From: Flagellimonas beolgyonensis
Lineage (GTDB): Bacteria > Bacteroidota > Bacteroidia > Flavobacteriales > Flavobacteriaceae
Reading direction: 5' to 3'
NCBI RefSeq assembly: GCF_003992615.1
Contig: NZ_RZMY01000016.1
Span: 62,001 to 126,000, forward strand
Length of the DNA stretch: 64,000 nt
Positions within the stretch are counted from its first letter, which is position 1; every line of letters starts with the position of its first letter. Positions 16,401 through 42,516 of this stretch are shown piece by piece. The position numbers and the translations under genes are program-made. The notes under the pieces are model-generated. The model had not been told where the DNA came from. It saw only the letters and a program-made list of their open reading frames with translations, and searched no databases.

Positions 16401-17543
16401 TTATTTTTCGAACCAACTTGAATCAATACCCGGAATGATTTTTAGGGCGTTTTTATAGTACACTTTTTTAAGCACTTCATCCGACAACCCCATTCCATAC
16501 ATCCTCCAAAAGGCATGGTACTTTTTGTGGTAAGGAAAGTATTCATCCGCTGTTTCCAAAACCCTGAAATATGTTACATACTCAGAAGGAACCCAAGAGT
16601 CCTTCCCGAACAGGATCCTATCCTGATGGGATTCAAAAAACTGCTTTGCCATTCGGGGCTGTCTACCCAATTCCGCGATTACGGCGCCAAACTCGATGTA
16701 CACATTGGGGTATTTTTTCAAAATAGCCGATAGTTCCGCCAGATCGTTTGAATGCCATCCAAAATGGGCATTTATAAAAATGGTTTTGGGGTGTTTGGCG
16801 AAAACGTCATGTTGTTCTTGCATCAATTGTTCCCATGATGGAATGGCACTGTTCGCATACCTACGATCTGGGTATTTGTACAGCTCCAACCATCGCTCAT
16901 TTTTTTCATCCATGGGATCCCAAAAAGATTTCGGGGCACCGGAATGAATCAGCACGGGTATGCCCAGTTCTCCGCAGGCCGCCCAGATGGGGTCCAATCG
17001 GGGGTCATTGATCGGAATCCGATTTCCATGAATATCGGTATAGGCTATGCCCAATTCTTTGAAAATCTTTAAGCCCTTTGCCCCATTGGCAACATCCTCT
17101 TTAAGTTGGTTCACGCTATATTCGGTCCATTGTACAAATCCAAACCCTTGAAAGTCGATATTTGCAAACACGGCCAATCGGTCGGACATGCCATTCTTGT
17201 AAATACTTTCCACTGCTTCTTTTAACTGGGACCCCCAACCTCCATTAAGGTTGATCATGAACTTCATTTGTAAGGAATCCATGGCCATTTTCAGTTTTTG
17301 GAAATCTTGCGGGGTCCTCAAGTATTGGTGACTGTGAACATCGATAAATGGATACTTGGCAGCGGAGACGATATGATCCGGAACGATCAACGTGGAGGCA
17401 GGATTATAGGCTTCCACGGTTATTTGCGCATTTGACCACAACGGAGTAAAGCCGAAAAGCGCAGTCAAAACAATTTTAAGAACCGTTGCTTTTTTTGGGG
17501 TGTTTTGACATCGTTTATTCGAGCTTTTATTTCCAACTCTCAT
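16401..17543 (-). CDS. Amidohydrolase family protein (cassette, altered start)
   Basis: A metal-dependent hydrolase of the amidohydrolase-2 type with a TIM barrel. Metal-binding motifs are visible: FIDVHSHQY, LIHSGAP, INAHFGWH and LFGKDSW. An export signal (VLTALFGFTPLWSNAQ) precedes the domain. The ATG at 17541-17543 is taken because an earlier in-frame ATG overlaps the upstream gene. A repeat copy lies inside the N-terminus (17511-17527), and the ATG that overlaps it, as in other cassettes, is out of frame by one base because of a run of seven A (gene strand, 17490-17496). With six A that ATG would yield MSKHPKKATVLK and an ideal signal peptide. The present start may therefore be secondary. 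Confidence 0.8.
   Translation of the reverse strand: MRVGNKSSNKRCQNTPKKATVLKIVLTALFGFTPLWSNAQITVEAYNPASTLIVPDHIVSAAKYPFIDVHSHQYLRTPQDFQKLKMAMDSLQMKFMINLNGGWGSQLKEAVESIYKNGMSDRLAVFANIDFQGFGFVQWTEYSVNQLKEDVANGAKGLKIFKELGIAYTDIHGNRIPINDPRLDPIWAACGELGIPVLIHSGAPKSFWDPMDEKNERWLELYKYPDRRYANSAIPSWEQLMQEQHDVFAKHPKTIFINAHFGWHSNDLAELSAILKKYPNVYIEFGAVIAELGRQPRMAKQFFESHQDRILFGKDSWVPSEYVTYFRVLETADEYFPYHKKYHAFWRMYGMGLSDEVLKKVYYKNALKIIPGIDSSWFEK
17511..17527. repeat. Cassette-junction repeat, copy 1 (variant)
   Basis: TCGTTTATTCGAGCTTT, 15 of 17 positions as consensus. It lies inside the annotated N-terminus of the amidohydrolase and 44 bp after the stop of the zincin lipoprotein gene. An ATG overlaps its edge, as at copies 9, 14 and 15. 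Confidence 0.8.
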
Positions 17544-17571
17544 AATGGATAATAATTTCTGAGTAAAACAT

Positions 17572-18390
17572 TTATTCACAAGGCTTATTAAATGTGTCTT
17601 CATTTATTGCTGGAGACTCTGGATATTTGACCAGCAAGTCCTTTTCAAGTTTATCCTTAAGACTTTCAAACGGTAAGCCGTAAATATGCTCAAATTCCCC
17701 AAATCCACTCTTCCAAAGTTGTACAAACTGGTCTATTCCATAATTTTTCAATAGACATTGAACTAAATATCCCGATTGATGATTGGCATACATTTCGGGT
17801 TGTCCATAGAAATCAGTTGTTAGTGATTCCATTGGAATGAGTTGGTCGGTTTCAAGAAGGTATCTGTAGAGTTCCGAAACATTCCATCCACTACAGCTGT
17901 TCTCAGCAAAAGTTCCCAATCCTTCGTTCATCCAATCGGATGATGCTCTTGGATAATCCCATTCCAACATTGCCATCAAGTGCATCAATTCATGCTTAAT
18001 CGGCGATTTGGAAGTTTCATTGGACACTACATACACGGTCTTGATATGGGGGTAGGCATTACCGAGGGCATGGGTTCCAGTTAAAGGGAACATTTCTTCA
18101 CGCGAACGTAAGAACCGTATAAAAATGGTATCCTTAAATTCTTTAAGTCCAAGCAAATCACGATCAGTTTTAAGTGCATTGAAACTTTCTTCTATCAAAT
18201 CTTCTTTGTTGTCAAATGCGAATCCACTATCTGGAAATGTAAAATGGACGTTTCTGATGGTTTTTTCAACTTGACCAACCTTTTTCCAGCCATCGTTTTC
18301 CTTCGTACTGTTTTTATCTTTTGAATAATTGCAAGCCACGATGGACAAAAGGACAATTAATAGATAAAGATTTTTTGAGCTTTGCTTCAT
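17572..18390 (-). CDS. Zincin-like lipoprotein (peptidase MA-type, HExxH)
   Basis: An exported 272-residue lipoprotein (lipobox SIVAC, C20). It carries the zinc protease signature HELMH (H133, E134, H137) and a downstream glutamate in WMNEGLGTFAE (E156), the gluzincin arrangement. No prodomain or other domain is recognised. The family resembles small peptidase-MA-like proteins, but I cannot name a substrate. It occupies one repeat-bounded unit of the array, 54 bp after repeat copy 2. Confidence 0.7.
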   Translation of the reverse strand: MKQSSKNLYLLIVLLSIVACNYSKDKNSTKENDGWKKVGQVEKTIRNVHFTFPDSGFAFDNKEDLIEESFNALKTDRDLLGLKEFKDTIFIRFLRSREEMFPLTGTHALGNAYPHIKTVYVVSNETSKSPIKHELMHLMAMLEWDYPRASSDWMNEGLGTFAENSCSGWNVSELYRYLLETDQLIPMESLTTDFYGQPEMYANHQSGYLVQCLLKNYGIDQFVQLWKSGFGEFEHIYGLPFESLKDKLEKDLLVKYPESPAINEDTFNKPCE

Positions 18391-18444
18391 CGTATTTGGA
18401 TTTCTAAAATGAGATGGAACTTATCTATTTTATTTAGGCGACAA

Positions 18445-18461
18445 TCGTTTATTTGAACTTA
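18445..18461. repeat. Cassette-junction repeat, copy 2
   Basis: TCGTTTATTTGAACTTA. Its edge forms the TAA stop codon (18459-18461) of the S41 peptidase gene. The next gene, a zincin lipoprotein, starts 54 bp further. Confidence 0.9.
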
Positions 18462-20669
18462 TTTTCCTTTTGCAATTATTTCAATGGCCTTTTCCAGCAA
18501 TTCGTCCCTCCCATTTCGTATTCCTGCAATTGTAGGTTTCACTTCAATATCAGGAACAATACCTATTCTTTGCGTCTCTTCCCCATTTGGATAATATACC
18601 CCAATACCTGAAATCATCGTTCTGATCCCTCCTGGCAAGTATATGGTAGAAACATTTCCGTCAGCACCCGCAGTGGTACTACCAATTATTGTGGTATTGT
18701 CGCCCGCCCTAAATGCCATGGACGTGTATTCGGCTTGACTCTGGGAAAGCTCATTGACCAAAACCACCAATTTTCCATTATAGGTGTCTCCGTTATTGGG
18801 AATTTCCAAATTTTCGGTAAACACGAATTCCCCGGGATTATCTATACTGCCATTGGTAAACTTCACAAAAGGAGTAGAGGAAGAAACAAAATAGGAACCC
18901 AATGTGAACGGAACAAACGTTGAAGGGTAGTTTCTGATGTCAATGATTATCCCTTTGGTGTCTTTAAATTGCTTTTTGATCAAAGGTATGTCCTCTTCCT
19001 TGATGGTTTGAAGGGTCACATAGCCAATGTTGTTATCCAACATTTTGAAAGACTTGAAATCTTCCCTTCTATACCATCGGTAGGTATCAAGGCTATCCTT
19101 CGGATAGAGTTTTAGTGTTTTAGTCTCCAATGTTTTATTTTTTGATGCTACAAGGATTTCAATTTCATTGTTATTTGAGCGCAAAAGATCGGTAGAAATA
19201 TCTCTTAGCCTGGTGGGGTAATTTGATGCCGGATAATATTTGGTTCTCTCTTGCACTATTTCGGTTACGGGCCTGTTATTGACCTTGGTTATGATGTCTC
19301 CGATCTCCAATCCAACCTCGTCTTTGCGTTCTTCGTTATAGTAATCCGTTACCACCAATTTATCTTCAATAAAACGGACATGGACCGGAGGATAGTTTGA
19401 TCCCTTCCAGTCATTTATCCTGCCAGCACCTTCCCAGATATTGGCGTGGGTATCCTTCACTTCCCCGATAAGCTGTATGGCTGCCATTTCATATTGAAGT
19501 TCGTTTTTGGCATTCAAGAAGAGTGGGATATATTCACCTAATACAGCGTTCCAATCTTTATCGGTCAGATGCTTGTAGGGGAAAAAATAATGAATCATGT
19601 TCCAATATCTATATAGCGAAAGTAGTCTGTATCCATCGTCAGGGAAAGGCATAAGATAATAGGCCGCTTCATTTTTAAAAATCGGGTTACCTACACCTGG
19701 GGCCATGCCTATGTAATAATGATTTCCCTGGGAACGGTTGTTGTATACATCCAGTAACTTCTCCCTTAGTGGATTTTCTTGGTCCTCGATCCACTTATGG
19801 TCGGGGCGAATTACCGCATCTTTACTTGTGGGCCCGCATTTGGAACACGTTGGTAAATCGCCCAAGGAAGCAATCCAATCGATCAAGAGGTTGTTTCTTT
19901 CTGTATCGTTTTGGGTTTGAAGGTATTTTGGCAAAATCCTGAACAGCTCATAGTCCCAATTATAATTTCCCTTGGCCGTTTCTGGATGATGGTATTTGAG
20001 AAAGCCCCAAACTTTGCCCAGCAACTCTAAATCTTCAATCTTCTCTTCCGTGATATTGGAAAGGTCGACCATTGATCCCGAGTCGAATTCTTTGTCCAGC
20101 TCTGCTTTTGCTAGTTCCCTTTCAACTTCTTTAAGTGTTTGTAAATTTTCGCCGTCTATGGTTATGGTAAAATCATCAAACCAAGCTTCCCCTTTCCCAA
20201 CGAGGATTCCGGCAACATAAATCATTTCAGCGCCTTCAGGATATTTAAGGGTTATCGTATATTTTTTCCAATCATTGGTTCCTGTTATATTTTGATTTTG
20301 CATGTTATCAAATGCCAACGAAGTGCCTTTTCCGTCTATTCTTATCAATAGACCGGCAAAGCCATCCTGAACTTCCTTGGTTTTCATATAACCCTCAAGC
20401 TGTATGCCCTTACCTTCGTACTTTGCAGGTATTTTATAGGCAATGCTTCCGAAGTTGGCACCATCCAGCGAAGAAATCTTTCCGGCCTTTGTTCCCGAGT
20501 AAGCTTGGGTATCAACGGACAAATTATGACCCCCCCATTGGAACCAATCATCCGGAAGTTTGCTTCCTTCTTTTTGATTTTCAAAATCTAGATTGAACTT
20601 TTCCCTGTTTTGACCCTGGCAACCTATGGAAATCAACAAAAGTAAAACCGATAGTAGTTGATGTTTCAT
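18459..20669 (-). CDS. S41 family peptidase, lipoprotein
   Basis: A 736-residue exported serine protease of the C-terminal processing protease family. A lipoprotein signal (LISIGCQG) is followed by a carbohydrate-binding-like or jelly-roll region (about 25-170). Then come a helical region, a PDZ-like segment (GLEIGDIITKVNNRPVTEIV) and the S41 catalytic domain with the nucleophile in LSQSQAEYT (about residue 645). Its stop codon is made by repeat copy 2. It has a 243-bp leader after the upstream decayed repeat and is less AT-rich than other array genes, so it may be a large cassette or a resident gene captured between sites. Confidence 0.88.
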   Translation of the reverse strand: MKHQLLSVLLLLISIGCQGQNREKFNLDFENQKEGSKLPDDWFQWGGHNLSVDTQAYSGTKAGKISSLDGANFGSIAYKIPAKYEGKGIQLEGYMKTKEVQDGFAGLLIRIDGKGTSLAFDNMQNQNITGTNDWKKYTITLKYPEGAEMIYVAGILVGKGEAWFDDFTITIDGENLQTLKEVERELAKAELDKEFDSGSMVDLSNITEEKIEDLELLGKVWGFLKYHHPETAKGNYNWDYELFRILPKYLQTQNDTERNNLLIDWIASLGDLPTCSKCGPTSKDAVIRPDHKWIEDQENPLREKLLDVYNNRSQGNHYYIGMAPGVGNPIFKNEAAYYLMPFPDDGYRLLSLYRYWNMIHYFFPYKHLTDKDWNAVLGEYIPLFLNAKNELQYEMAAIQLIGEVKDTHANIWEGAGRINDWKGSNYPPVHVRFIEDKLVVTDYYNEERKDEVGLEIGDIITKVNNRPVTEIVQERTKYYPASNYPTRLRDISTDLLRSNNNEIEILVASKNKTLETKTLKLYPKDSLDTYRWYRREDFKSFKMLDNNIGYVTLQTIKEEDIPLIKKQFKDTKGIIIDIRNYPSTFVPFTLGSYFVSSSTPFVKFTNGSIDNPGEFVFTENLEIPNNGDTYNGKLVVLVNELSQSQAEYTSMAFRAGDNTTIIGSTTAGADGNVSTIYLPGGIRTMISGIGVYYPNGEETQRIGIVPDIEVKPTIAGIRNGRDELLEKAIEIIAKGK

Positions 20670-20912
20670 TGATGGTACTTTTAGTATTTATTTTAAGCGG
20701 AATCTATTTTGTCGGATGTTATCCGATATTGTTGGGGGAGAATGCCACTTGGCGTGCAGCTGTTCTAAAAATATAAAAATCCAGATAGCTTAACGAGAGG
20801 TTAACAGCAATTTAAGGGTGGCTTAAGTTATAAATATTGTCCAGTTGATCTATTTTAAAAGGCTTGGACAAAGAATATTTATGGTTGAATTACAAATCAT
20901 CTTTCATCCCAT
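20670..20912. other. Long leader between decayed repeat copy 3 and the S41 gene
   Basis: This 243-bp stretch has no ORF of note. A short palindrome TCGGAT...ATCCGA lies near 20712-20726. It may hold the promoter of the S41 gene, but I see no convincing -33/-7 pair. Confidence 0.4.
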
Positions 20913-20929
20913 TAGTTTGTTTGAACTTT
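20913..20929. repeat. Cassette-junction repeat, copy 3 (decayed)
   Basis: TAGTTTGTTTGAACTTT, 15 of 17 positions as consensus. It marks the downstream edge of a 119-bp mini unit holding a micro-ORF. Confidence 0.7.
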
Positions 20930-20947
20930 AATCAATTTTTGTCCCTT

Positions 20948-21031
20948 TCAAAAGAGACGTTTGCCAAACTTCCCAAGATGCTTTGTCCATTCAATATGGG
21001 TTGTTAGTTGTCCTTTTCTTTTTTGAGACAT
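20948..21031 (-). pseudogene. Micro-ORF cassette, probably truncated by a nonsense change
   Basis: The ATG directly abuts repeat copy 4, as in other cassettes. It encodes 27 residues, MSQKRKGQ...HLGKFGKRLF, then TGA. Beyond the TGA the frame continues KGQKLIK and runs into repeat copy 3, which encodes VQTN before a TAA. From memory this resembles the start of small basic proteins common in Bacteroidota in which a Trp follows KR-F; a TGG-to-TGA change would explain the stop. This identification is not verified. Confidence 0.45.
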
Positions 21032-21048
21032 TTTTTTATTTGAAGTTT
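21032..21048. repeat. Cassette-junction repeat, copy 4 (decayed)
   Basis: TTTTTTATTTGAAGTTT, 14 of 17 positions as consensus. It directly precedes the micro-ORF start and lies 22 bp after the stop of the 188-residue protein gene. Confidence 0.6.
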
Positions 21049-21070
21049 TGTAAATCAAAAATGGAATGCA

Positions 21071-21637
21071 TTACCTTATATTATTGCATTCAACTATAAT
21101 TTTCTCAACACTTTTTATTTTCCCCTTTTCAATCTTTTCAACAACTAAGGGGAATCCATTTAGAAACTTTTTGATTTTACTTTTGCCGGACATTGTGGCA
21201 TTTATAACCTGACCGGTTTTGAGTTTTAAATATTTATGTTGTCTAACCATTGGCATTTTTTTGCCAAGGGCTTCATTTAAAATTCTTTGATTAAGGGATT
21301 CCTTACTCTCTACCACATATAAATTGAGGTATGGTCCGTGAATTAGTTTCTTTGCCAGTACGTATACCCCATAGGCAAGAATCAGAGTTTCATATTCTTC
21401 TTTGCCCCTCTTGTACATTCTAATATCTTCAGCCAACATTTTCTTTTTGGCACCAGACGCCGTCATGTAATTTATCTTCCTAAAACTTTGGAACCTATCC
21501 AAGACTTTAATCTTCACGATAAGTGTGTCTCCAGAACGCGTAACAATTTCTCCATCCAAATATTCACTGCCCTGTCCGTAACCAACAATGAAGAACAAAA
21601 AAATGATTAGATAGACCGATGAATTCCTAATTTTCAT
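21071..21637 (-). CDS. Exported protein of unknown function (188 aa)
   Basis: I do not recognise the family. A signal peptide (VYLIIFLFFIVGYGQG) is followed by a basic, strand-rich region beginning DGEIVTRSGDTLIVKIKV. This opening resembles the small beta domain at the start of many Bacteroidota secreted proteins that describe a property written to a surface. The C-terminus is lysine-rich. It forms one repeat-bounded unit, starting 22 bp after repeat copy 5. Confidence 0.65.
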   Translation of the reverse strand: MKIRNSSVYLIIFLFFIVGYGQGSEYLDGEIVTRSGDTLIVKIKVLDRFQSFRKINYMTASGAKKKMLAEDIRMYKRGKEEYETLILAYGVYVLAKKLIHGPYLNLYVVESKESLNQRILNEALGKKMPMVRQHKYLKLKTGQVINATMSGKSKIKKFLNGFPLVVEKIEKGKIKSVEKIIVECNNIR

Positions 21638-21659
21638 ATAAAACCAAAATATAGGTCAA

Positions 21660-21676
21660 TTGTTTATTTGAGCTTT
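21660..21676. repeat. Cassette-junction repeat, copy 5 (variant)
   Basis: TTGTTTATTTGAGCTTT, 15 of 17. It overlaps the TAA stop (21675-21677) of the next gene upstream in the array. Confidence 0.85.
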
Positions 21677-22115
21677 ATTTATCGTATATACTATCCAATT
21701 CATACAAGAAATCGATATAGTCCCAACTGTTTTTGATGCCTGAAAAATTAAGTCTGATTATTGTATCAAGTTCCTTCCTTCTAAGTCTCATGTCTAGGTT
21801 ATTCTTCTCTTTTGAAATCGAATCACCCACTTCAATGAACTTAAACAATCCTATCCATTCATAATCCAATCTAACTTCTCTGGTTTTAGATTGATTCACA
21901 AGAACTATTTTCTTATATCCGTGATTATCCCAATCAATAAACTTTTTTGACACTATCCCACTAAAGCTATCATTGTAATATGTTTGTGCAACACTTATGA
22001 AGAAATCATCATTGAGCCCCAATGCATTTTCCACTTTTTTATTCATTAAATAGAACCCAAAAATCCATCCCATTACAATTAGAACAACTACAATTAAAAT
22101 TTTTGAACTCTTCAC
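21675..22115 (-). CDS. Small membrane-anchored protein of unknown function (146 aa)
   Basis: The family is not recognised. One N-terminal transmembrane segment (ILIVVVLIVMGWIFGFYLM, about 5-23) anchors a soluble domain of about 120 residues that probably faces the periplasm. The start is GTG, 2 bp from repeat copy 6. The stop overlaps repeat copy 5, so the coding region fills nearly the whole unit between two repeats. Confidence 0.65.
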   Translation of the reverse strand: MKSSKILIVVVLIVMGWIFGFYLMNKKVENALGLNDDFFISVAQTYYNDSFSGIVSKKFIDWDNHGYKKIVLVNQSKTREVRLDYEWIGLFKFIEVGDSISKEKNNLDMRLRRKELDTIIRLNFSGIKNSWDYIDFLYELDSIYDK

Positions 22116-22117
22116 AA

Positions 22118-22134
22118 TCGTTTATTTGAACTTT
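22118..22134. repeat. Cassette-junction repeat, copy 6
   Basis: Perfect consensus TCGTTTATTTGAACTTT. Two bases separate it from the GTG start of the small membrane protein; the serine hydrolase stop is 103 bp away on the other side. Confidence 0.9.
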
Positions 22135-22237
22135 GGTAACGGTTGTTATATGAAAGTTAAGGGTCTTATACACTTGATTTTTGGTTTAGTCCTGACCTTA
22201 AATTTATAAAACCGAAATTTGATTAGGCACTTAAACA

Positions 22238-23788
22238 CTATTTTTCATATACACCGTTAGACATAGAATCTTCTTCAATCGATTTTATTTTTTTCTTTAT
22301 GCCAAAAAACGTAGAATCTATGGTTTGAACCTTCTTAAAATTTATCAGTGCATTAAATGTATCTCCTTTCGCCAGTAATGCATCACCATAACTATCATAC
22401 ACATTGGCTGATTTGGGATACTCCTCTTGATTCAATTTAAATATACCTATGGCCTCATCCATCTTTTTATCTTCCAGCAATTCATATCCCAGAAAATTAA
22501 GTTCATTTTCATGAAAAATATAGTAATCCGGTTGCTCTGATTTTAATTTTTTATAGTGCTCAATAGCAGTTGTAATTCCTTCGGCCTGAACTTTTTTCCC
22601 TATTACGTCCGCAATAAATATTCTTGGGAATTTCGGTGGTTTATTGTGAAGAATATCAATTAAACCATCATCTAAATTGAAATACCTACTATTGTTATTC
22701 GTTAATGTTATGATACAGTTGTCCTCTTCTATTTCTCGATAAATGTTGGTCAAGAAACCAGCCCATCCACCCATGTGCTTTACCACTTTTTTACCGTTTG
22801 GTGATACATCAATAAACCAACCAAAACCATAATTTGTTTTCTCTCCATTATTTAATATTCCCGGAGAAAAAGCCACCTCTAGTGTTTGTTTGGAAACCAG
22901 CTCCTCTGTATATAATATTCTGTCCCATTTCATTAGATCTTCTAGTGTAGAATATATTCCACCTTCTCCTTTGGCTGCATTTAGGTAATGGAAATCAGTA
23001 GAAAACCTATCAGTTCCATTAAATTTCGTTCCAAATCCAAAGACCCTATTTGGCATCTTTTCATCAAAACCGGGGACATATCTATAAACGGAGGTGTTGG
23101 ACATCTTGGCAGGGGTGAAGATATGTTCTTGTAGAAATTCATCAAATGTCTTCCCAGATGCTCTGGAAATAATGGTAGCAAGCAAATTGTAACCTGTATT
23201 GCTATATTCCCACTTTTCCCCAGGTTTAAAATGAACAGGGGGCTTATATTCAGACAACATCTTAAGGATATCCTCATTACCGGATATCAATCTTTCCGGG
23301 TCGTCATATGATAGATCTATTTTCCAATGTTCGTTCATGGTCATAGTATAGTCAGGTAAACCAGAGGTGTGATTTAGTAGATGCCTTATGGTTATTCCTT
23401 GATAGGAGAGTTCTGGAATAAACTCCCTAACATCCTGATCATAGGATAATTTACCCGCTTCTTTTAAGATCATAATACCCATTGCGGTAAATTGTTTACT
23501 CACAGAACCTAACCTAAATACCGAGTTCAGTTTCAAGGAATCAATAGGGTTGAAATTGCTTATTCCAAACGTTCCTTGAAATACCATTTCACCATTTTCA
23601 ATGATTAGTGCATTGCCATTAAATTGCCCCTTATCATATAATCCGTATAAATATGACTGGTACTTGTCTGCAAGGGTTACCTTTTTAGTATCTGATTTGT
23701 TTTGAATTTGACCGCATGATGAAAAAAAGAAAAGGATAAGAAGTAGTGTACTTGTATATTTTTGTCCTTTTGCTTTAAATGTTTTCAT
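22238..23788 (-). CDS. Serine hydrolase, beta-lactamase/class C family lipoprotein with TPR-like tail
   Basis: A 516-residue exported lipoprotein (LFFFSSCGQ). The penicillin-binding fold shows SVSK as the SxxK catalytic motif, YSNTGYNLL as the YxN motif and HMGGWAGF near the third motif (HxG type). A C-terminal segment (about 400-505) has TPR-like helices (FKLNQEEYPKSANVYDSYGDALLAKGD). Such proteins are esterases, D-aminopeptidases or carboxypeptidases rather than true beta-lactamases. It fills one cassette unit and starts 25 bp from repeat copy 7. Confidence 0.88.
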   Translation of the reverse strand: MKTFKAKGQKYTSTLLLILFFFSSCGQIQNKSDTKKVTLADKYQSYLYGLYDKGQFNGNALIIENGEMVFQGTFGISNFNPIDSLKLNSVFRLGSVSKQFTAMGIMILKEAGKLSYDQDVREFIPELSYQGITIRHLLNHTSGLPDYTMTMNEHWKIDLSYDDPERLISGNEDILKMLSEYKPPVHFKPGEKWEYSNTGYNLLATIISRASGKTFDEFLQEHIFTPAKMSNTSVYRYVPGFDEKMPNRVFGFGTKFNGTDRFSTDFHYLNAAKGEGGIYSTLEDLMKWDRILYTEELVSKQTLEVAFSPGILNNGEKTNYGFGWFIDVSPNGKKVVKHMGGWAGFLTNIYREIEEDNCIITLTNNNSRYFNLDDGLIDILHNKPPKFPRIFIADVIGKKVQAEGITTAIEHYKKLKSEQPDYYIFHENELNFLGYELLEDKKMDEAIGIFKLNQEEYPKSANVYDSYGDALLAKGDTFNALINFKKVQTIDSTFFGIKKKIKSIEEDSMSNGVYEK

Positions 23789-23813
23789 GAGTAAATCTTC
23801 AATTTGGTATGAA

Positions 23814-23830
23814 TCGTTTATTTGAACTTT
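23814..23830. repeat. Cassette-junction repeat, copy 7
   Basis: Perfect consensus, 25 bp before the start of the serine hydrolase gene and 74 bp after the stop of the next gene upstream. Confidence 0.9.
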
Positions 23831-23904
23831 GGTATTCCGTCATTTAGATTTATCTATTTTTTCAATCCTCTATATTGGATTAGAACTTTTTGTTTTATTT
23901 CAAA

Positions 23905-24285
23905 TTAGTCAACAAAACAAAGTCCCTTAATATTATTGGCTACATATAAATTATTTATTGAGTCTCTCTCGAATAGAATCTCAGTACCGTTGAATTCAAC
24001 GCCAGCTAATTCCAACGTCACAATGTCCCTTCCTTCAAAATAGGACTTAACATCCAAATCATAATATTGATTCAATTTTAAAGCATTGCAATCATTTATT
24101 TTTTCTTTGGCAGACATAATTTTAAAGAGACAATTGTTTTTACGGGTATAGATTAAATAAACTTGGCCAACAGAATCTATTCTTATTATTCTATGTAGTT
24201 TGGTTTTTGTTATTTGGCTGCTGCCTTTATAAGGAGTCAGGGTTATTATCAACATTAAACCAAATAATATCAATGCCGCTTTCAT
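23905..24285 (-). CDS. Exported protein of unknown function (126 aa)
   Basis: Family not recognised. A signal peptide (LILFGLMLIITLTPYKGSSQ) precedes about 100 residues that include YTRKNNCLFKIMSAKEKINDC and a final CFVD; the cysteines could form a disulfide after export. The start is 3 bp from repeat copy 8. Confidence 0.6.
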   Translation of the reverse strand: MKAALILFGLMLIITLTPYKGSSQITKTKLHRIIRIDSVGQVYLIYTRKNNCLFKIMSAKEKINDCNALKLNQYYDLDVKSYFEGRDIVTLELAGVEFNGTEILFERDSINNLYVANNIKGLCFVD

Positions 24286-24288
24286 TTA

Positions 24289-24305
24289 TCGTTTATTTGA
24301 ACTTT
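24289..24305. repeat. Cassette-junction repeat, copy 8
   Basis: Perfect consensus, 3 bp before the start of the 126-residue gene and 17 bp after the stop of the zinc-binding protein gene. Confidence 0.9.
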
Positions 24306-24322
24306 TGATTCATTAAGGCTCT

Positions 24323-24598
24323 CTATGTACAATACCTTTTATTCATCGCCTTCAAAAATTCTGTATCATCAATAGGTAGGTTATCTGATAAAACCGAATC
24401 TATTGCGCAAAACGGACACAGAGCTGTTTTTCCCCTAGAATCCTCTTCATCAACCCAATCAATTATTTTATTTACTTCAAAAATGTTTTGACAATGAAAG
24501 CAGCCACATTTCTTACTTTCATTTAATTCCTTATCATGAAAGATACTTCGCTTGTGAGCTTCTTCTAAAAAAGCATTATCATATTTATTTCTACTCAT
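24323..24598 (-). CDS. Small cytoplasmic protein with two CxxC-type zinc knuckles (91 aa)
   Basis: No signal peptide. Two knuckles, C33-x2-C36 (within CGCFHC) and C61-x2-C64 (CPFC), could hold one zinc ion; the region between is acidic (DWVDEEDSRG). Similar small proteins are known in other bacteria without assigned function, sometimes near toxin or immunity genes. The ATG overlaps repeat copy 9. It is one of few non-exported products of the array. Confidence 0.65.
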   Translation of the reverse strand: MSRNKYDNAFLEEAHKRSIFHDKELNESKKCGCFHCQNIFEVNKIIDWVDEEDSRGKTALCPFCAIDSVLSDNLPIDDTEFLKAMNKRYCT

Positions 24599-24614
24599 CG
24601 TTTATTTGAACTTT
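24598..24614. repeat. Cassette-junction repeat, copy 9
   Basis: Perfect consensus. The start codon of the zinc-knuckle protein (24596-24598) shares a base with it. Confidence 0.9.
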
Positions 24615-24648
24615 GATATTATTATGTGAAGCAGTTACCCCAAACTGA

Positions 24649-25239
24649 TTAACCTTCATAACCAAACCAATGATTATAACACTCAACTTTGGCAGCTTCA
24701 ATTTCCTTGAATCTTCCTTCCTTTAAGTTCACCACCCACACTTTAATGAGATGATTGATATCAAAAAACTCTTTATCCTGATCAATGGCAATTCCGTAAA
24801 CAAACTTCTCGTCAGGGCCATCAATAATTTTACAGGTAGTAGGTTCCGAAAAAAGCTTTGACCTATCTGCAATTAATCGAACTTCATCTAAAATTTTATA
24901 TTTGACTTTTGATGGGTTATCTCTAATAATTTGTTCTAAAACAAGAACCTGAAGACTGTCTTTTTGGATATATGCAATTGCTTTGTCTGTACCATCCAGA
25001 ACTGATCCAAGAATTTTTGTAAATCCTTTGTATTTTTCCAATTGAGTTATGTCTCGAAATATTTGGCCATTATTGTCCAAATTGGAATTTTTGTTAATCT
25101 TAGAATTAGATTCAGTATTCGCAACTTGACTTTCATTTTCAATCTTTGAATCCTCTTTTATTTCTGATGTCTTCTTCCCTTTTTGACAACTGACAAAAAG
25201 AAGTAGTGATAAAAAAATTAAGCTTTTTCTCAAATTCAT
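24649..25239 (-). CDS. Lipoprotein of unknown function (196 aa)
   Basis: Lipoprotein signal FLSLLLFVSCQKG, then a long polar linker rich in Ser, Asn, Glu and Lys (about 20-62) typical of surface-exposed Bacteroidota lipoproteins, then a folded domain of about 130 residues with TTCKIIDGPDEKFVYGIAI. The domain is not recognised. It starts 20 bp from repeat copy 10. Confidence 0.6.
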   Translation of the reverse strand: MNLRKSLIFLSLLLFVSCQKGKKTSEIKEDSKIENESQVANTESNSKINKNSNLDNNGQIFRDITQLEKYKGFTKILGSVLDGTDKAIAYIQKDSLQVLVLEQIIRDNPSKVKYKILDEVRLIADRSKLFSEPTTCKIIDGPDEKFVYGIAIDQDKEFFDINHLIKVWVVNLKEGRFKEIEAAKVECYNHWFGYEG

Positions 25240-25259
25240 GAATTGAATTTTGTTGGTAA

Positions 25260-25276
25260 TCGTTTATTTAAACTAT
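25260..25276. repeat. Cassette-junction repeat, copy 10 (variant)
   Basis: TCGTTTATTTAAACTAT, 15 of 17. Only 3 bp separate it from the stop codon of the 136-residue lipoprotein gene. Confidence 0.85.
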
Positions 25277-25279
25277 TAT

Positions 25280-25690
25280 TCAGTTACATATTTCCGAATG
25301 TCTCCTGTTGATAAAGCCTTTCCAGAACTCATTCACATTTTCAAAAGTTACTCCATTTTCTATTCTTCGCATAGTTAGGGTTTCACCATTATTTAAATTC
25401 TGCATTTGGATTTTACTCTTTCCAACATACTTTAACCTTGCTTTTATGGAGTCACGCCATTCTCCAAAAGTTTCAAAAAAAATTGTGTCCTTACTAATCG
25501 TAATTTGATTCCAATCAGATAATTTCGCCCATTCATTTTCAGATGCAACCCTCATCGAATCTCCTTTAAAATATACCTCAAGATATTCTCCGTTATGACA
25601 CATAGAATAATTTCCATCAAGGCTTCCTTGATCTTGGCAACCAGCGAATAGTGCTAACATCAAAATTGTATACCATTGTTTGAGTGCCAT
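25280..25690 (-). CDS. Small lipoprotein of unknown function (136 aa)
   Basis: Lipoprotein signal ILMLALFAGCQDQ. The rest looks like a small beta-rich domain (LEVYFKGDSMRVAS, KDTIFFETFGEW, LKYVGKSKIQMQNLNNGETLTMRRI), similar in layout to lipocalin-like or META-like folds, but no family is assigned. It starts 22 bp from repeat copy 11. Confidence 0.6.
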   Translation of the reverse strand: MALKQWYTILMLALFAGCQDQGSLDGNYSMCHNGEYLEVYFKGDSMRVASENEWAKLSDWNQITISKDTIFFETFGEWRDSIKARLKYVGKSKIQMQNLNNGETLTMRRIENGVTFENVNEFWKGFINRRHSEICN

Positions 25691-25712
25691 CTTATATTTC
25701 CTAACCTGTATA

Positions 25713-25729
25713 TCGTTTTTTTGAACTAT
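25713..25729. repeat. Cassette-junction repeat, copy 11 (variant)
   Basis: TCGTTTTTTTGAACTAT, 15 of 17, 22 bp before the small lipoprotein start and 19 bp after the stop of the next gene upstream. Confidence 0.8.
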
Positions 25730-25748
25730 GATTTAGTTTTAGTTCTTT

Positions 25749-26180
25749 TTATTCTTTACAAAATTTACCCTCTATAGATTGTTCACCTCCGTTGTATTTG
25801 AGAGTCGATTTGTAAAAAAAACAATTCCCTTCAATTTTGACCATTTCGTTAATAAATCCACCTAGCTGATTCACCATTTTTTGCATATCGGTCAACTCTG
25901 ATTTTGTCGAATCATATGTCAATTTATAGGTGCAATCATCTATCCATTCTATAATTCCATACCGTGGATTCATTGGGAAGTCAGTTCCTTTTAATTCATC
26001 TGGTAATACCCCAGGGATTTCTATTTGGGAACTTCCCTCTCTGACTATTTTCCATTCTATTTTCACAGGTTCAGTCATGCTTGAAATAAACTCTCCTTCT
26101 TTAAAATCATCACATGACAATTCCTGTCCAAATGAGATAAGGGCAGAAAGGAAAAGTGGGAATATCAGTAGTTTTTTCAT
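25749..26180 (-). CDS. Exported protein of unknown function (143 aa)
   Basis: The ATG at 26178-26180 gives a clean signal peptide MKKLLIFPLFLSALISFGQ; a 60-bp longer frame crosses towards the repeat and lacks export features. The mature part contains several paired-looking cysteines (LSCDDFKEGEF, DDCTYKLTYD, NCFFYKSTL, GKFCKE), suggesting disulfides in the periplasm. No family recognised. It lies 25 bp from repeat copy 12. Confidence 0.65.
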   Translation of the reverse strand: MKKLLIFPLFLSALISFGQELSCDDFKEGEFISSMTEPVKIEWKIVREGSSQIEIPGVLPDELKGTDFPMNPRYGIIEWIDDCTYKLTYDSTKSELTDMQKMVNQLGGFINEMVKIEGNCFFYKSTLKYNGGEQSIEGKFCKE

Positions 26181-26205
26181 TTTAAGTTTATGGTATTGGC
26201 TTTGG

Positions 26206-26222
26206 TCGTTTATTTGTACTTG
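26206..26222. repeat. Cassette-junction repeat, copy 12 (variant)
   Basis: TCGTTTATTTGTACTTG, 15 of 17, 25 bp before the 143-residue gene and 30 bp after the stop of the 325-residue gene. Confidence 0.85.
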
Positions 26223-26252
26223 AAGTCTAAAACAATGCATGAAATGAAGTAT

Positions 26253-27230
26253 TTATTCATCATAAATTAACTCTATTTCCAATTCCGCAAGATTTTCAAC
26301 TTTGGTATTATCCAAATTCAAAATTGTCTTTCGACTACCATAAATTCTATGAGGAATACCTGGATCATAATAGTATTGATAATAATTCAAATCAGTGATA
26401 TAGAAAATTGCAGATTTCATCAACTCTTCTGCTTTATCCTCTTCTAAACCCATTTTTTTAAACAACATTGTGACTTGTCTTTTGGTATCAATTGGATTGA
26501 TAATAGCTTCTTCTTTTAATACACAGTAAAAGTCTTTTTTATCAGCTTCAACAATTGATAGTTTTGCATCCGCCTTTACAGGATCTCCTCCAACCATATT
26601 TGGCAATTCTGATTCATATTCGTAAGGCTCATTCAAATCATATTCTGAACCAAAAGGAAAATGAAAATATTGTAATTCGTATACAATCAACTGTTCAATC
26701 CCTTCCTTTGAACTATAAATGTTTGCTAGAGGTTCTATGGCTTGTCTAATTTCATTGATTTTATCTGGTTTACGAAGCTTAATGTTTCTTTCCAATTCAC
26801 CAAGTAAGTTGCTCATTAGACTACTTATATCCTTCCAGTTTACTATTTCCAAGAATTCTCCATACTCATCCGTTTTATAGATCACATTTGTGACATTATA
26901 TTGATAAACTATATCATTAAATGCTTTTTTATCTTCATAAATCTTATTTAAATTTTCCTTATAACTATCAGCAAGGAAATTATTGTAAGACCATTGTATT
27001 GTATATGATTTTTCGGTTGAATCAATTACTTTAAAATTTGCAATGTATTGTATGGAATCATTTATTGATAGTTTTTCATTGGTCCATCGTTTTTTAGTTT
27101 TAGTTACTTTAAAATTGTAACTATCACCTAAAGACCAATATGCAATGAATGCAATTTTGGTTGAATCACTTTGACTAGATGAAGAGAGAGTAAAAATTAA
27201 AAAGAAAAGAAAGGTTAAGTTTTTACACAT
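26253..27230 (-). CDS. Exported protein of unknown function (325 aa)
   Basis: A signal peptide (FLFFLIFTLSSSSQS) is followed by about 300 residues without a recognised domain. The mature region begins with strands (YWSLGDSYNFKVTKTKKRW) and has a helical middle part. Similar long periplasmic proteins are frequent in this phylum without assigned function. Very AT-rich. It starts 37 bp from repeat copy 13. Confidence 0.65.
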   Translation of the reverse strand: MCKNLTFLFFLIFTLSSSSQSDSTKIAFIAYWSLGDSYNFKVTKTKKRWTNEKLSINDSIQYIANFKVIDSTEKSYTIQWSYNNFLADSYKENLNKIYEDKKAFNDIVYQYNVTNVIYKTDEYGEFLEIVNWKDISSLMSNLLGELERNIKLRKPDKINEIRQAIEPLANIYSSKEGIEQLIVYELQYFHFPFGSEYDLNEPYEYESELPNMVGGDPVKADAKLSIVEADKKDFYCVLKEEAIINPIDTKRQVTMLFKKMGLEEDKAEELMKSAIFYITDLNYYQYYYDPGIPHRIYGSRKTILNLDNTKVENLAELEIELIYDE

Positions 27231-27267
27231 AGATATTTCAATTATGTACCAATTTCATCTATTAGAA

Positions 27268-27284
27268 TCGTTTATTTGAACTTT
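27268..27284. repeat. Cassette-junction repeat, copy 13
   Basis: Perfect consensus, 8 bp after the stop of the PD-(D/E)XK-like gene. Confidence 0.9.
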
Positions 27285-27292
27285 TTTCCCTA

Positions 27293-27874
27293 TTAAATAC
27301 GTTGTAACATATAAAAATGATATTCCACCAAATAGGGACGAGAAATGGAAATGGCATCTAATGGCTTTAATTTTGCATCTTTAAATTCTTCGAAACTTTT
27401 TAAAACATTTGATTTCCAAATCTCAGATTTGGCAATATATCTATTCAAGCTCGGAGTTATTTTCCAAGTATCATCAAATTTCTGTTTGTCTGCAATGTTC
27501 CAATTTGCAATTACTAGTATAAATAAGTCTGAATTTCTCTTTAAAAAGTCATTTCGAATCATAAAACTGTAATCGGACAAACTTTTAAAATCTCCACTAA
27601 ATTGATATTTAAATTCAATTTTGATTGGACTTTCAGGATTATTCTTATTGACGACACTGAGGTCAGCTCTAGTTTTATTTTCCCTAGGATGCTCTGCAAA
27701 TGCTTTCACATCTGTTCCTTTAAACCTTTCGTTAAGTTCCTCTAAAATCAAATTACGAATGTGATTTTCTTGTTTCAGATTGGGGTAATTGCAATTTACC
27801 TTTTCAAGCATATTTTTAAATGAATCTGATTCTATTACACCTGAAATCAATTGTGATATACTTTCAACTTCCAT
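27293..27874 (-). CDS. PD-(D/E)XK nuclease-like protein of unknown function (193 aa)
   Basis: Cytoplasmic, no signal. The pattern LILEELNERF, then TRADLSVV (D71), then IKIEFKYQ (E87, K89) matches the core of the PD-(D/E)XK fold: a helix with Glu, a strand with Asp, and a strand with ExK. This suggests a nuclease or a restriction-like domain, possibly defensive. The assignment is by motif only. Its ATG overlaps repeat copy 14 and lies inside the 3' end of the small gene upstream. Confidence 0.55.
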   Translation of the reverse strand: MEVESISQLISGVIESDSFKNMLEKVNCNYPNLKQENHIRNLILEELNERFKGTDVKAFAEHPRENKTRADLSVVNKNNPESPIKIEFKYQFSGDFKSLSDYSFMIRNDFLKRNSDLFILVIANWNIADKQKFDDTWKITPSLNRYIAKSEIWKSNVLKSFEEFKDAKLKPLDAISISRPYLVEYHFYMLQRI

Positions 27875-28124
27875 CGTTTATTTGAACTTTTCTGATATTA
27901 GATGCATCCTTGATAATTGAAAAAGGATTTAATTTCAAATTACATTCTTTTATAAAATATTCAAGATGATCAATGGCTAGTCCAAATTCATTATTTTCTA
28001 AAAACTCTTGAATAATTTCCTTGGCATCATTTACGCCTAATGATTCAATTTCATGTGGCAACCTCACAATATTGAAAAACTCATTAATAATTTCATTACT
28101 CAATTGCCATATCTCTTGCTTCAT
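27864..28124 (-). CDS. Small acidic protein with repeat-encoded C-terminus (86 aa)
   Basis: A helical acidic protein (DAKEIIQEFLENNEFGLAIDHLEYFIKECNL) whose helix pattern recalls small immunity proteins of contact-toxin systems; this is a resemblance from memory, not a proven match. The last codons KVQIND are encoded by repeat copy 14 itself, followed by GS and TGA, so the natural end was probably replaced when the cassettes were joined. The ATG overlaps repeat copy 15. Confidence 0.6.
   Translation of the reverse strand: MKQEIWQLSNEIINEFFNIVRLPHEIESLGVNDAKEIIQEFLENNEFGLAIDHLEYFIKECNLKLNPFSIIKDASNIRKVQINDGS
27874..27890. repeat. Cassette-junction repeat, copy 14
   Basis: Perfect consensus. 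It lies inside the last codons of the 86-residue gene and overlaps the ATG of the PD-(D/E)XK-like gene. Confidence 0.9.
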
Positions 28125-28140
28125 CGTTTTATTGAACTTA
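28124..28140. repeat. Cassette-junction repeat, copy 15 (variant)
   Basis: TCGTTTTATTGAACTTA, 14 of 17. One base separates it from the stop of the TlpA-like gene and it overlaps the ATG of the 86-residue gene. This is the copy nearest the recombinase in array orientation. Confidence 0.85.
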
Positions 28141-28141
28141 T

Positions 28142-29140
28142 TTAATTTAATAGCTCATCCAGTTTTGCATTCAACTTTTCTCCATGAATGTTCTGCTCCA
28201 AAATAACTCCGTTCTGGTCAATCAAAAAGTTGTTGGGAATTGCATGAATTCCGTAAATCAAAGAAGCTGTATTTTCGTGGCCTTTTAAATCACTGACCTG
28301 AGGCCAAGGTAATCCGTCCTTTTCAATTGCCTCAATCCAACTTTCTCTTTTGGTGTCTTGTGAAACAGCAAATACTTCAAATCCTTTTGAATTATACTTC
28401 TCATAGGTTTTGACTAGATTCGGGTTTTCCTTTCTGCAGGGCAAACAACTAGAAGACCAAAACTCCAACAAAACCACTTTGTCCCTGAATTCGGAAAGTT
28501 TCCTCATTCCACCGTCAATGTCTTGCATTTCAAAATCAACATAACTATCTCCAATTCTCGGATTTTTATTGAGCTTAATATAGTTTGCAATTTTCTTTCC
28601 GTATTCAGTTCGCTTGTTTTCTATTGAAAGATTGTCATATAGTTCTTTCGTTTTTTCCTTGCCCCAAGTCGTAGAATATACCGAGAGGACATAAGCTCCA
28701 TGAAGACTGTTCGGATGCTGTTTGACAAACTCTTGCTCTTTTTGGGTTCTTTCATCCCTAGGAAGTGTTTCAGTCTCTATACTCAGATTGTAACTTAAGT
28801 TTTCCTCATCAGAACCTGTTACAATTGCGTTTCTGAAATCGGAGTTTGTGGCATCAAAGGTCATTTGATTGTTTTCCAACCATAAAAATCTATAATGGGA
28901 AAAGTCCTTTGTATTCAAAACCACTTGTACAGGTGTTTTTGTCAAATCGGTTTTGAAGTGAAAGGAATTGTTTTCCACAACAGCTGAATCGATTGCCGTT
29001 CCCGAACTGGTATTTTCAAGATAAAGAACTGTACCGTCTAAAATGTCTTTGGTCTTCCCAATTAGTTCAAATTGATTGTTTGGTTTTTTATTGCAGGCGA
29101 TAATTATAAATGGAATCAATCCAAATATTAATCTTTTCAT
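28142..29140 (-). CDS. TlpA-like thiol-disulfide oxidoreductase lipoprotein with DUF4369-type N-terminus
   Basis: Exported 332-residue lipoprotein (FIIIACNKK). A DUF4369-like beta domain (about 22-120) precedes a thioredoxin-like AhpC/TSA domain (about 195-330) with the redox pair C232 and C235 in SSCLPCRKENP and a cis-proline near IPNNF. Such proteins reduce disulfides in the periplasm. It is the first gene after the recombinase; no repeat separates the two, but a small inverted repeat (AATGGT...ACCATT, 29155-29180) lies in the gap. Confidence 0.88.
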   Translation of the reverse strand: MKRLIFGLIPFIIIACNKKPNNQFELIGKTKDILDGTVLYLENTSSGTAIDSAVVENNSFHFKTDLTKTPVQVVLNTKDFSHYRFLWLENNQMTFDATNSDFRNAIVTGSDEENLSYNLSIETETLPRDERTQKEQEFVKQHPNSLHGAYVLSVYSTTWGKEKTKELYDNLSIENKRTEYGKKIANYIKLNKNPRIGDSYVDFEMQDIDGGMRKLSEFRDKVVLLEFWSSSCLPCRKENPNLVKTYEKYNSKGFEVFAVSQDTKRESWIEAIEKDGLPWPQVSDLKGHENTASLIYGIHAIPNNFLIDQNGVILEQNIHGEKLNAKLDELLN

Positions 29141-29214
29141 GAAGTAATATTATTAATGGTTATGGTGCTTATAGACCATTAAAATACATATTATTCTTAC
29201 AATTCAAGCAATTG

Positions 29215-29886: not shown

Positions 29887-29892
29887 AACCTG

Positions 29893-29909
29893 AAAGTTTA
29901 AATAAACGG
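29893..29909. repeat. Inverted repeat copy 16, upstream of the recombinase
   Basis: On the plus strand AAAGTTTAAATAAACGG, the reverse complement of the array repeat with 15 of 17 positions matching. It lies 6 bp before the recombinase start codon and faces opposite to the 15 array copies. Confidence 0.85.
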
Positions 29910-29978
29910 TAGAATGTAAACTATTTATCTAGTACGGGGAAATGAACTTTGACAAACCAGTGGAGTCGTTTTACACTA

Positions 29979-29995
29979 AAAGTTCAAAAAAACGG
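29979..29995. repeat. Inverted repeat copy 17
   Basis: On the plus strand AAAGTTCAAAAAAACGG, inverted relative to the array and 15 of 17 as consensus. A half copy TCGTTTTA (29966-29973) faces it, making a dyad, and GAACTTT (29944-29950) lies between the two inverted copies. The stretch 29893-29995 could be the primary recombination site. Confidence 0.75.
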
Positions 29996-30035
29996 TCCAT
30001 TGAGGGAACCCAATCTAATAAGGAGAAAAAATAAA

Positions 30036-30060: not shown

Positions 30061-30066
30061 TTTTCG

Positions 30067-30138
30067 TTGGCCTACTAGGACTCGAACCTAGAATGACTGA
30101 ACCAAAATCAGTAGTGTTGCCAATTACACCATAGGCCA
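30067..30138 (-). tRNA. tRNA-Gln (anticodon TTG)
   Basis: On the minus strand the acceptor stem TGGCCTA pairs with TAGGCCA and discriminator A follows (30067). The D arm, anticodon stem-loop ACTGA-TTTTGGT-TCAGT with anticodon TTG, and T arm CTAGG-TTCGAGT-CCTAG are all present. CCA is not encoded. The 3' end faces the cassette array, the side on which integrated islands usually sit. Confidence 0.95.
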
Positions 30139-30326
30139 GTACCGTAAAAGCTAAACTGATCCAGCTTTTGAGCGTGCAAATTTAAAACAAACTTTGGTTT
30201 CAACAAATATTTTAAGAAGAATACCCACTATTTTTATTTACCCCCATGTTAAAGCTTTTGCAAAAACCGCCAACCTTCTGTGCTAGATTTACTAAATTCG
30301 CCCCAACACGGTTAACAACCATCTCT

Positions 30327-33300: not shown

Positions 33301-33680
33301 AACCCTTTGTGGATGGCTATTACAAGGTAGGAGAAACCGACAAGGCAAGGGAACTGTATGGCAAACTCAAAAAGGTCTACCAAGAGCATTTGGAATACTA
33401 TGCCAACATTCCGTTGGACGAACAATATGAAAGAATTGACGATATCCTATCCGATATGCAGGCCTACCGTAGGAACATCGATATTTTAATTGAGAATCGG
33501 GACAAGGAATTTGCTGAATCGGAAACGATCATCTTTAATGAATACATCGACAAGTTCTCCCAATTTGTGGACGATGAGGAGGAAATACTGGAAGAACCCC
33601 TGCCCATGGACCCGGATATGGAAGACTCCATTCCATTGGATACCATTGGTGCCATCAACGATTCAATAGGAAATGAATAA
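30327..33680 (+). CDS. DUF2723 family membrane protein (protein O-mannosyltransferase-like)
   Basis: A large membrane protein of about 1117 residues. The N-terminal half has about 10-12 hydrophobic segments and the signature FWDAGEYISTAAKLQVGHPPGAPL, which recalls the DE/GEY-type motif of GT-C glycosyltransferases. The C-terminal half is soluble, with NDTFPLWYAQ and NDWKRPIYFS, and ends with a coiled, acidic tail. The ATG at 30327 (MFAKDFKKWDTILGW) is preferred over 30246 because the added residues look like tRNA-proximal leader. Members are thought to transfer sugars to exported proteins; the activity here is inferred. Confidence 0.88.
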   Translation: MFAKDFKKWDTILGWVSFAIAFSVYALTVEPTGSFWDAGEYISTAAKLQVGHPPGAPLLQMIGAFFAMFAFGDESKIALMVNAVSVVSSAFAVLFTFWTITNLVRKLIGSKKELSNSKAIAVLGSGLVGALAFTFSDSFWFNAVETEVYGMASLIMALLLWLGLKWVDNLDDPRGNRWILLISFVVGLTFGIQFMGFLAIPSIGLLYYFKKCKTTTVKNFLFANIVVVAVLILVYKFSLTYVLKLFGWSEVFFINEIGLPFNSGSIIMGLVFIAVFYFGLRYTRKHKFYTGNLIILCLMFLILGFSSWLMLPIRANAKTVVNENNPADARALLAYYNREQYPGVESPFYGAYYSDAFAPAGEDRDESPKYEKDLKLGKYVIVNHYKGALPGPNEKHVGFLPRMWSDQHAENYMRYFGALDFRIKSEYISNNDLREAVNQFKTAYSRGELDSDQYLRFLREFGEYIEVQPPTLGQNFRYMFDFQFGYMYMRYFMWNFVGKQNDIQGRYDENGNWLSGIGFVDSLFRGSQDNLPSDWENNKGRNTYFFLPLLLGIIGIVFQITKNPKQFWVLFVFFMFTGLAIQFYTNPYIFQPRERDYSLVGSFYIFCIWIGLGVYGLFEEVKKLLSAKIAAPVITTLCLVAVPFLMAFQNWDDHDRSDRYTAKSTAKSYLDSCQEDAGAILFTIGDNDTFPLWYAQEIENYRTDVRIVNTSLFATDWYIDQMKRKAYESDPIPSQLTHDKYRYGTRDAVYYNKADDIFGRPISESRWSIKDFMNWIGSDNPETKFGFVLDKRGADVDQYPESTLDIVYYPTNKIRIPVNKENVIKSGLVKEKDSALIVDYIDIDLPQSALPKNRILMLDVIANNDWKRPIYFSGGSFDSAEYIWMKDYLQLDGLIYKLVPIKTPNRNSFEMGRIDSDLMYDIVKDWDWGNSGSDKIYHDPQTRSQGLSFRSNLARLMETLIAENKIDKAKDVIDMAMTNMPVEHYYFYTFVEPFVDGYYKVGETDKARELYGKLKKVYQEHLEYYANIPLDEQYERIDDILSDMQAYRRNIDILIENRDKEFAESETIIFNEYIDKFSQFVDDEEEILEEPLPMDPDMEDSIPLDTIGAINDSIGNE

Positions 33681-42474: not shown

Positions 42475-42516
42475 CAACCTCCCAAAACAAGAATCCTACA
42501 AAATGTTATCTTTAAA
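42475..42516. repeat. Left 42-bp direct repeat flanking the HEPN-like insertion
   Basis: Forty-two bases that match 43223-43264 at 38 positions. It starts CAACCTCCC and ends ATCTTTAAA. It lies 16 bp after the membrane protein stop codon. Confidence 0.85.

Follow-up and report, generated by a model that had tools for sequence, protein, structure and literature searches.

Why should the gene for a small serine recombinase be preceded by two inverted copies of the same short site that, on its other side, separates the genes of a long cassette array? The 64,000-nucleotide stretch of Flagellimonas beolgyonensis DNA analyzed here (the window) presents this arrangement (Table 1). A sequence-only reading had proposed that the two copies form a candidate primary attachment site, comparable in its place to the attI of an integron, or alternatively a switch of array expression operated by inversion. 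Integrons are the textbook gene-capture platform and depend on one unusual tyrosine recombinase that acts on folded single strands. The reading that we favor, and hold with moderate confidence, is that positions 29887-29996 would constitute the outer end and control element of a gene-cassette platform run by a serine recombinase.

Table 1 Features of the cassette platform and its boundaries, in window coordinates
Feature	Position	Strand	Remarks
Cassette array	17510..28140	+	14 sites; cassette genes on the minus strand
Array site starts	17510, 18444, 20912, 21659, 22117, 23813, 24288, 24597, 25259, 25712, 26205, 27267, 27873, 28123	+	
Array site nearest the recombinase	28123..28140	+	AT centre, ATCGTTTTATTGAACTTA
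AhpC-TSA/thioredoxin-like gene with DUF4369	28142..29140	-	First gene after the recombinase
Leader between recombinase and array	29141..29214	-	In type A relatives ends in promoter-like TACATTTA
Small serine recombinase, 223 aa	29215..29886	-	PF00239 Resolvase, 1.1e-41; type A protein, CxxC..CxxH tail
Proximal copy (predicted site III)	29893..29910	-	ACCGTTTATTTAAACTTT on the minus strand; typical of type B upstream regions
Conserved middle block (predicted site II)	29916..29950	-	AAAGTTCA..CGTAC..TAGTTTAC; two half-site-like motifs, head to tail
Half copy TCGTTTTA	29966..29973	+	Not conserved: as AAAACGA in 4 of 17 rows
Distal copy (predicted site I)	29979..29996	-	ACCGTTTTTTTGAACTTT; platform outer end; type ACCGTTT..TGAACTTT
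tRNA-Gln	30066..30138	-	Chromosomal boundary gene, outer side

The two inverted copies reported by the sequence-only reading are indeed present between the recombinase gene and tRNA-Gln, each of them one base longer than first described, and each deviates from the array consensus at one of 16 positions. Ten Markov-shuffled windows gave a mean of 0.1 match at two mismatches and none at zero or one, and a position weight matrix applied at a score of at least 14 found 15 sites in the window against 0.1 per shuffle (20 shuffles, 64 kb). By their sequence, the two upstream copies are recombinase-type sites, beyond chance. Their opposed orientation was likewise borne out, with 14 array copies on the plus strand and both upstream copies on the minus strand. 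Two half copies had been noted as well: GAACTTT (29944-29950) belongs to a block that is kept in all 17 aligned upstream regions, whereas TCGTTTTA is found in only four of the 17 and is probably lineage-specific.

The enzyme encoded next to these copies is a PF00239 protein, thus not an IntI tyrosine recombinase but a small serine recombinase with a resolvase catalytic domain, and at 223 aa it lacks the long C-terminal DNA-binding region of the large serine integrases and Ccr. Its nearest solved relatives are the DNA invertase Gin (4m6f, 5e-37) and gamma-delta/Tn3 resolvase, and a structure model (mean pLDDT 77, pTM 0.46) matches Tn3 and gamma-delta resolvase, as expected. The Mpi family model is matched at 1.7e-17, below its cut-off, and the Ccr models, whose matches extend no further than residue 142, stay far below theirs. 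A scan of species genomes yielded 80 homologous loci, the best 80 of 499, the near ones mostly from Flavobacteriaceae. These fall into protein types A (62-97% identity) and B (53-59% identity, without the C-terminal CxxC..CxxH tail). No type A or B recombinase was found on the plasmids searched (best 54.7% identity) or in the viral contigs searched (at most 49% among the best 80 matches); recombinases 51-55% identical to the window protein are carried by plasmids of Aureispira, Emticicia and Runella. Of 349 genomes sampled from the family, 15 gave a match at E <=1e-45, the genome of the window included, and the system is thus patchy outside the genus.

Comparison between loci shows the region ahead of the gene to contain an element that is conserved, fixed in place, sharp-edged, exchanged, and retained without the recombinase gene. 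This element extends over 104 bp and is framed by the distal and proximal copies. When positions -125 to -80 were searched for the best match, the distal copy proved to be located 103-110 bp ahead of the start codon in 53 of the 54 loci counted, window included; L049, without a good distal copy, was dropped, and L017 (no clear copy) and L027 (GGTGGTTTAATTGAACTTT) were left out of the count. Mean pairwise identity among 11 type A and 8 type B-like rows rises from 0.23-0.36 outside the distal copy, through 0.44-0.50 over the last 10 bp outside, to 0.91-0.93 inside it. All 28 upstream regions inspected for a proximal copy, those of 27 type B loci and of the window, contain one, the best match agreeing at 11-18 of 18 positions, while an alignment of 20 type A upstream regions contains no proximal copy and has another palindromic sequence in that place. 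Between the copies, AAAGTTYA..CGTA..TAGTTTA is conserved both in a 17-row alignment (window and 16 type B loci) and in the 20-row type A alignment, and columns A56, A58, G59, T60 and A63 of the GAACTTT block are invariant over the 17 rows. The predicted three sites span 104 bp in type B, and the 28-bp gap between sites I and II depends on boundaries of site II chosen by the analyst from conservation. The window itself is chimeric: its upstream region and the opening 29 nt of the gene are of type B, the remainder of the gene of type A, which implies at least one exchange of the element between the two kinds of recombinase.

Several further observations concern the surroundings of the distal copy. 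At one locus (L204, G001:C22) it is joined directly to the sequence that lies behind the proximal copy, with a remnant of a type B gene next, an arrangement that looks as if both copies had recombined and the middle had been lost. A hairpin-like module (TAGTTCCGGTAA..TTTACGGAACTA) is located upstream of the distal copy in L018, with related modules in L007, L016, L021, L031, L045 and L046, and it precedes type A and type B platforms alike. A search with the left flank of one platform returned a dispersed repeat rather than one unique locus. For a dispersed repeat with the core GGGGCTTGCAGCACTCCACTTCGTTGCGTTCGC, 30 copies were inspected (L193-L222): 15 are located 73-75 bp outside a distal copy, and the remaining ones have no good distal copy; this repeat may be either a preferred landing place or a hitch-hiking element.

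If the distal copy were a true attI into which cassette circles are inserted, a compound site that adjoins the recombinase, is conserved together with its gene and is kept even in platforms without the recombinase would be well accounted for. Such insertion would, however, turn the outer half next to the accessory block into ATC, the triplet of 279 of 311 array copies. The distal outer triplet is instead ACC in 50 of 53 loci (GTC in L018 and L019, GCC in L041), while ACC occurs in one of the 311 array copies (Fisher p 1e-56). Among the 34 platforms with 10 kb on each side, no plus-oriented array copy (score >=14) was found within 10 kb upstream; 25 of the 34 have at least two array copies downstream, and on the other side no platform has more than one. 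We therefore do not retain the primary attachment site of the sequence-only reading.

The place at which cassettes do vary also lies elsewhere. A conserved leader ending in TACATTTA, which is promoter-like by the flavobacterial consensus, precedes the first array site, and on that consensus the leader may have a Pc-like role. The type A leader is followed by an intact first array site in some relatives; such a site is absent in the window, and many full type A platforms have it only in degenerate form or not at all. Where a leader end is directly followed by an intact site (12 places in 11 loci, of which eight are platform leaders and four lie inside arrays or before an orphan array), the leaders resemble each other (mean identity 0.61 over 40 bp), and none of the 66 pairs of first cassettes behind them exceeds 0.7 identity, the best reaching 0.43. 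Matching leaders followed by differing first cassettes locate the variable junction beyond the recombinase, away from the upstream copies, where new cassettes had been expected to appear, and the leader-adjacent site fits the role of entry point better; an attI function of the distal copy consequently deserves hardly any credence. What remains of the earlier proposal is an attI-like compound site in position and build, being associated with the recombinase, conserved in other Flavobacteriaceae, located beside the gene and array-like in sequence, though not as a site of cassette insertion. Leader-like ends (CCTACATTTA) are also found directly before array sites within arrays (L009:19147, L305:2407, L119:19800) and are perhaps copied promoters.

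For the array itself, comparison shows cassette units, their sites, a common orientation and a pool common to platforms. The array motif, derived from 185 copies, is 18 bp long and reads ATC(G/C)TTTATTTGAACTTT; the search string was a 13-bp core, and five positions outside this core came out conserved at 85-95%. These 185 copies lie downstream of the recombinase in array orientation at 44 loci, against six in the opposite orientation. Within the genus, 71 genomes contain 543 sites at no more than one mismatch, distributed over 60 genomes (reversed control, 2), and 16 distant homologues (208,952 bases) had no array site. The median number of sites per genome is 10 with a type A or B match (n=34, some of them broken) versus 2.5 without a match (n=18; p 3e-6), 19 genomes with weak matches (median 3) having been set aside. 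The cassettes (n=311) mostly hold single genes with one site each: in 290 the longest ORF runs in array direction, 237 contain a single forward ORF of 70 aa or more, and in 59 the longest ORF begins at an ATG formed by the end of the site itself. A Pfam scan of 97 of 167 non-duplicate cassette ORFs (70-420 aa) returned 93 families, the commonest with three members; examples are GNAT, Barstar, Abi_2, Beta-lactamase and hydrolase families. Site decay revealed no polarity along the arrays (Spearman 0.05, p 0.52). A second array with five sites is present in the same genome (C16:193806-196842, L111), with no recombinase nearby and a leader end before its first site.

Cassettes move as units. Cutting out 324 segments gave 60 full-length homologous pairs, and after removal of 28 that represented the upstream element itself, 32 pairs of shared cassettes (72-99.5% identity) were left, which are not independent since some cassettes recur and one pair lies within a single locus. 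In none of the 32 are the 60-bp flanks related on either side (0.28-0.51 identity), and for 26 pairs the homology reaches the sites at both ends (ungapped identity of at least 0.6 over 60 bp). Two species (L002 and L003) have two cassettes in common in swapped order, and a 438-bp cassette is shared at 94.5% by a type A and a type B platform (L001 and L047). The idea that the repeats are mere promoters was rejected because the sites bound mobile units. When 20 left and 20 right copies of the 18-bp site were compared to map the crossover, left copies varied in both halves and right copies mostly at the centre, with too few differences to place it. The exchange would presumably be carried out by this recombinase.

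The opposed orientation of distal copy and array sites raises the question of inversion, since recombination between them would be expected to invert the recombinase and not to delete it. A switch in which this exchange flips recombinase and leader and thereby decides whether the array is expressed would draw on this real opposition and on the TT centre of the distal copy, which is found in the window and in nine of 53 loci in all, as in most array sites. Most loci differ in this respect, the central dinucleotide being AT in 35 of 53 distal copies versus TT in 263 of 311 array copies (p 3e-17). In the same 34 platforms the downstream copies number 150 in array orientation versus one opposite, with two upstream outside the element, and not one platform was found inverted, although assemblies show the major form only. 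The switch put forward in the sequence-only reading thus appears very unlikely, although the window itself, with its TT centre at the distal copy, might still permit inversion.

A more modest function would be that of a plain autoregulatory operator or promoter of the recombinase with no part in recombination. The element lies directly ahead of the start codon, was exchanged in one piece together with the 5' end of the gene, and contains a half-site block that may overlap the promoter, all of which would suit an operator. A search of the genus with a recombinase-less platform, on the other hand, found the element at 18 such places (query included) in 14 of 70 genomes, that of the window among them. 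What these mini-platforms keep, in matches over most of 215 bp, is site I with the middle block, the stretch ahead of the start codon, short terminal pieces of the recombinase frame, and the leader; those in G048 and G035 are without a recognizable start of the query. An array site lies 195-200 bp from the distal copy in six of 12 mini-platforms inspected and at least one site within 1.5 kb in eight of the 12; for L313 the printed stretch is offset, apparently by a contig end, and its two sites are 200 bp apart. That the element is kept where the recombinase gene is gone suggests a role in cis. Its retention could nevertheless be partly passive, since some mini-platforms are degenerate, among them the one in G048, and some may share one ancestral deletion; five that were aligned apparently have the same internal junction. 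The distal copy, about 100 bp off the gene, moreover retains a full core site with both arms, and a purely regulatory function seems unlikely to us. A degenerate mini-platform is also present in the genome of the window itself (C15:347302-347508; L312, L341), with array-type sites near it at C15:340853 and 345700.

The favored reading, an outer end with control function, leaves room for movement of the platform as a whole. One genome (G026) has a 4,975-bp contig that begins at the distal copy's outer edge, ends 3 bp beyond an array site and shows about twofold coverage (72.3 versus 36.6 for one other contig), and two other contigs with different flanks are both joined to it exactly at the distal copy, suggesting that the copy is the recent junction of a duplicated platform. 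This would be expected if distal copy and array site formed the inverted terminal repeats of a platform that moves whole, as would the differing contexts in which platforms and mini-platforms are found. Only one neighbor contig was found on the other side of this platform, however, duplication by homologous recombination would be possible, and no target duplication was identified. We regard such terminal repeats as a doubtful but conceivable explanation.

On the chromosomal side, tRNA-Gln and the first part of the long ORF that follows (30246-33680, probably encoding a DUF2723-type protein) were matched in all 70 genus genomes searched. Two relatives are without the island, and in them the genes left of the array adjoin tRNA-Gln (W7155|30058 in G037, W5120|30061 in G007). 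The nearest genome at this locus (G048, 89%, itself 75% complete) is syntenic for W2-16186 and W29970-30148; it keeps both chromosomal flanks, has a mini-platform remnant where the recombinase would be, and contains other sites and no cassettes in common with the window (blastn 1e-10). Integration targeted to tRNA genes was considered and rejected, as only five of the 44 loci scanned have a tRNA gene up to 0.9 kb outside the platform and these represent four types (L006 Val, L024 Met, L047 Met, L048 Arg, L050 Lys; the window has tRNA-Gln). Farther out, a 41-nt direct repeat, 93% identical, occurs at 42475-42515 and 43223-43263, near the start of and just behind a 257-aa ORF that adjoins a RadC gene.

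A working model of the platform can be proposed. Three predicted recombinase-binding sites would lie between chromosome and gene: site I, built like an array site yet forming a class of its own, site II with its head-to-tail half sites, and site III. Recombinase dimers could fill sites I-III and, once bound, repress the recombinase gene from its own upstream region, and a res-like complex of this kind might limit which pairs of sites recombine. Cassettes would move between the 18-bp sites beyond the recombinase gene, and the distal copy may also serve as a junction when the whole platform moves. For the system as a whole we consider the term 'serine integron' probably appropriate: a small resolvase-type recombinase would excise and insert single-gene cassettes at 18-bp double-strand sites, with a fixed platform (res-like element, recombinase, leader and first site), non-autonomous mini-platforms with the cis elements only, and a cassette pool extending across two recombinase types and several Flavobacteriaceae genera. 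No description of such a system was found in searches of openly licensed PMC papers. Marine flavobacteria seem to store and swap single genes in resolvase-run arrays that resemble integrons but employ an unrelated enzyme. If the platform is independent, single-gene cassette arrays would have arisen twice with different chemistry, and if the model is true it would help to account for the turnover of genes in marine Flavobacteriaceae. With the mini-platforms, the sequence likely to be needed in cis comes down to about 215 bp.

Known systems share individual features with this platform. SCC elements are likewise gene cassettes moved by serine recombinases, but Ccr proteins are large serine recombinases that move large elements carrying their own ccr genes, whereas the enzyme described here has 223 aa and most cassettes hold one gene. 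The serine DNA invertases Gin, Hin and Bacteroides Mpi are close sequence relatives, and Mpi is a single enzyme that acts on many sites; in contrast, inverted forms are absent from the 34 platforms and the sites delimit genes, not promoters. With Tn3/gamma-delta and Sin the platform shares the catalytic family and fold and a compound region of about 100 bp before the gene in which the core-type site is farthest off, while differing in that many core-only copies form a cassette array. As given in PMC2428073 and PMC9943657, Tn3/gamma-delta res is 114 bp long with three sites and a 22-bp I-II linker, and Sin res is 86 bp long with a head-to-tail site II, which the middle block resembles in its head-to-tail arrangement. 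Measured against the integron features set out in PMC8946536, the likeness comprises a recombinase gene with an adjacent compound site, an array of mostly single-gene, co-oriented cassettes with one site each, mobile cassettes, recombinase-less arrays and a leader before the first cassette. Whereas attC sites are poorly conserved in sequence and function as folded single strands, the cassette site here is bounded, 18 bp long and conserved in primary sequence; the enzyme is of resolvase-type serine and not IntI tyrosine character, and the array lies behind the recombinase and co-directional with it, the compound site being on the far side and inverted.
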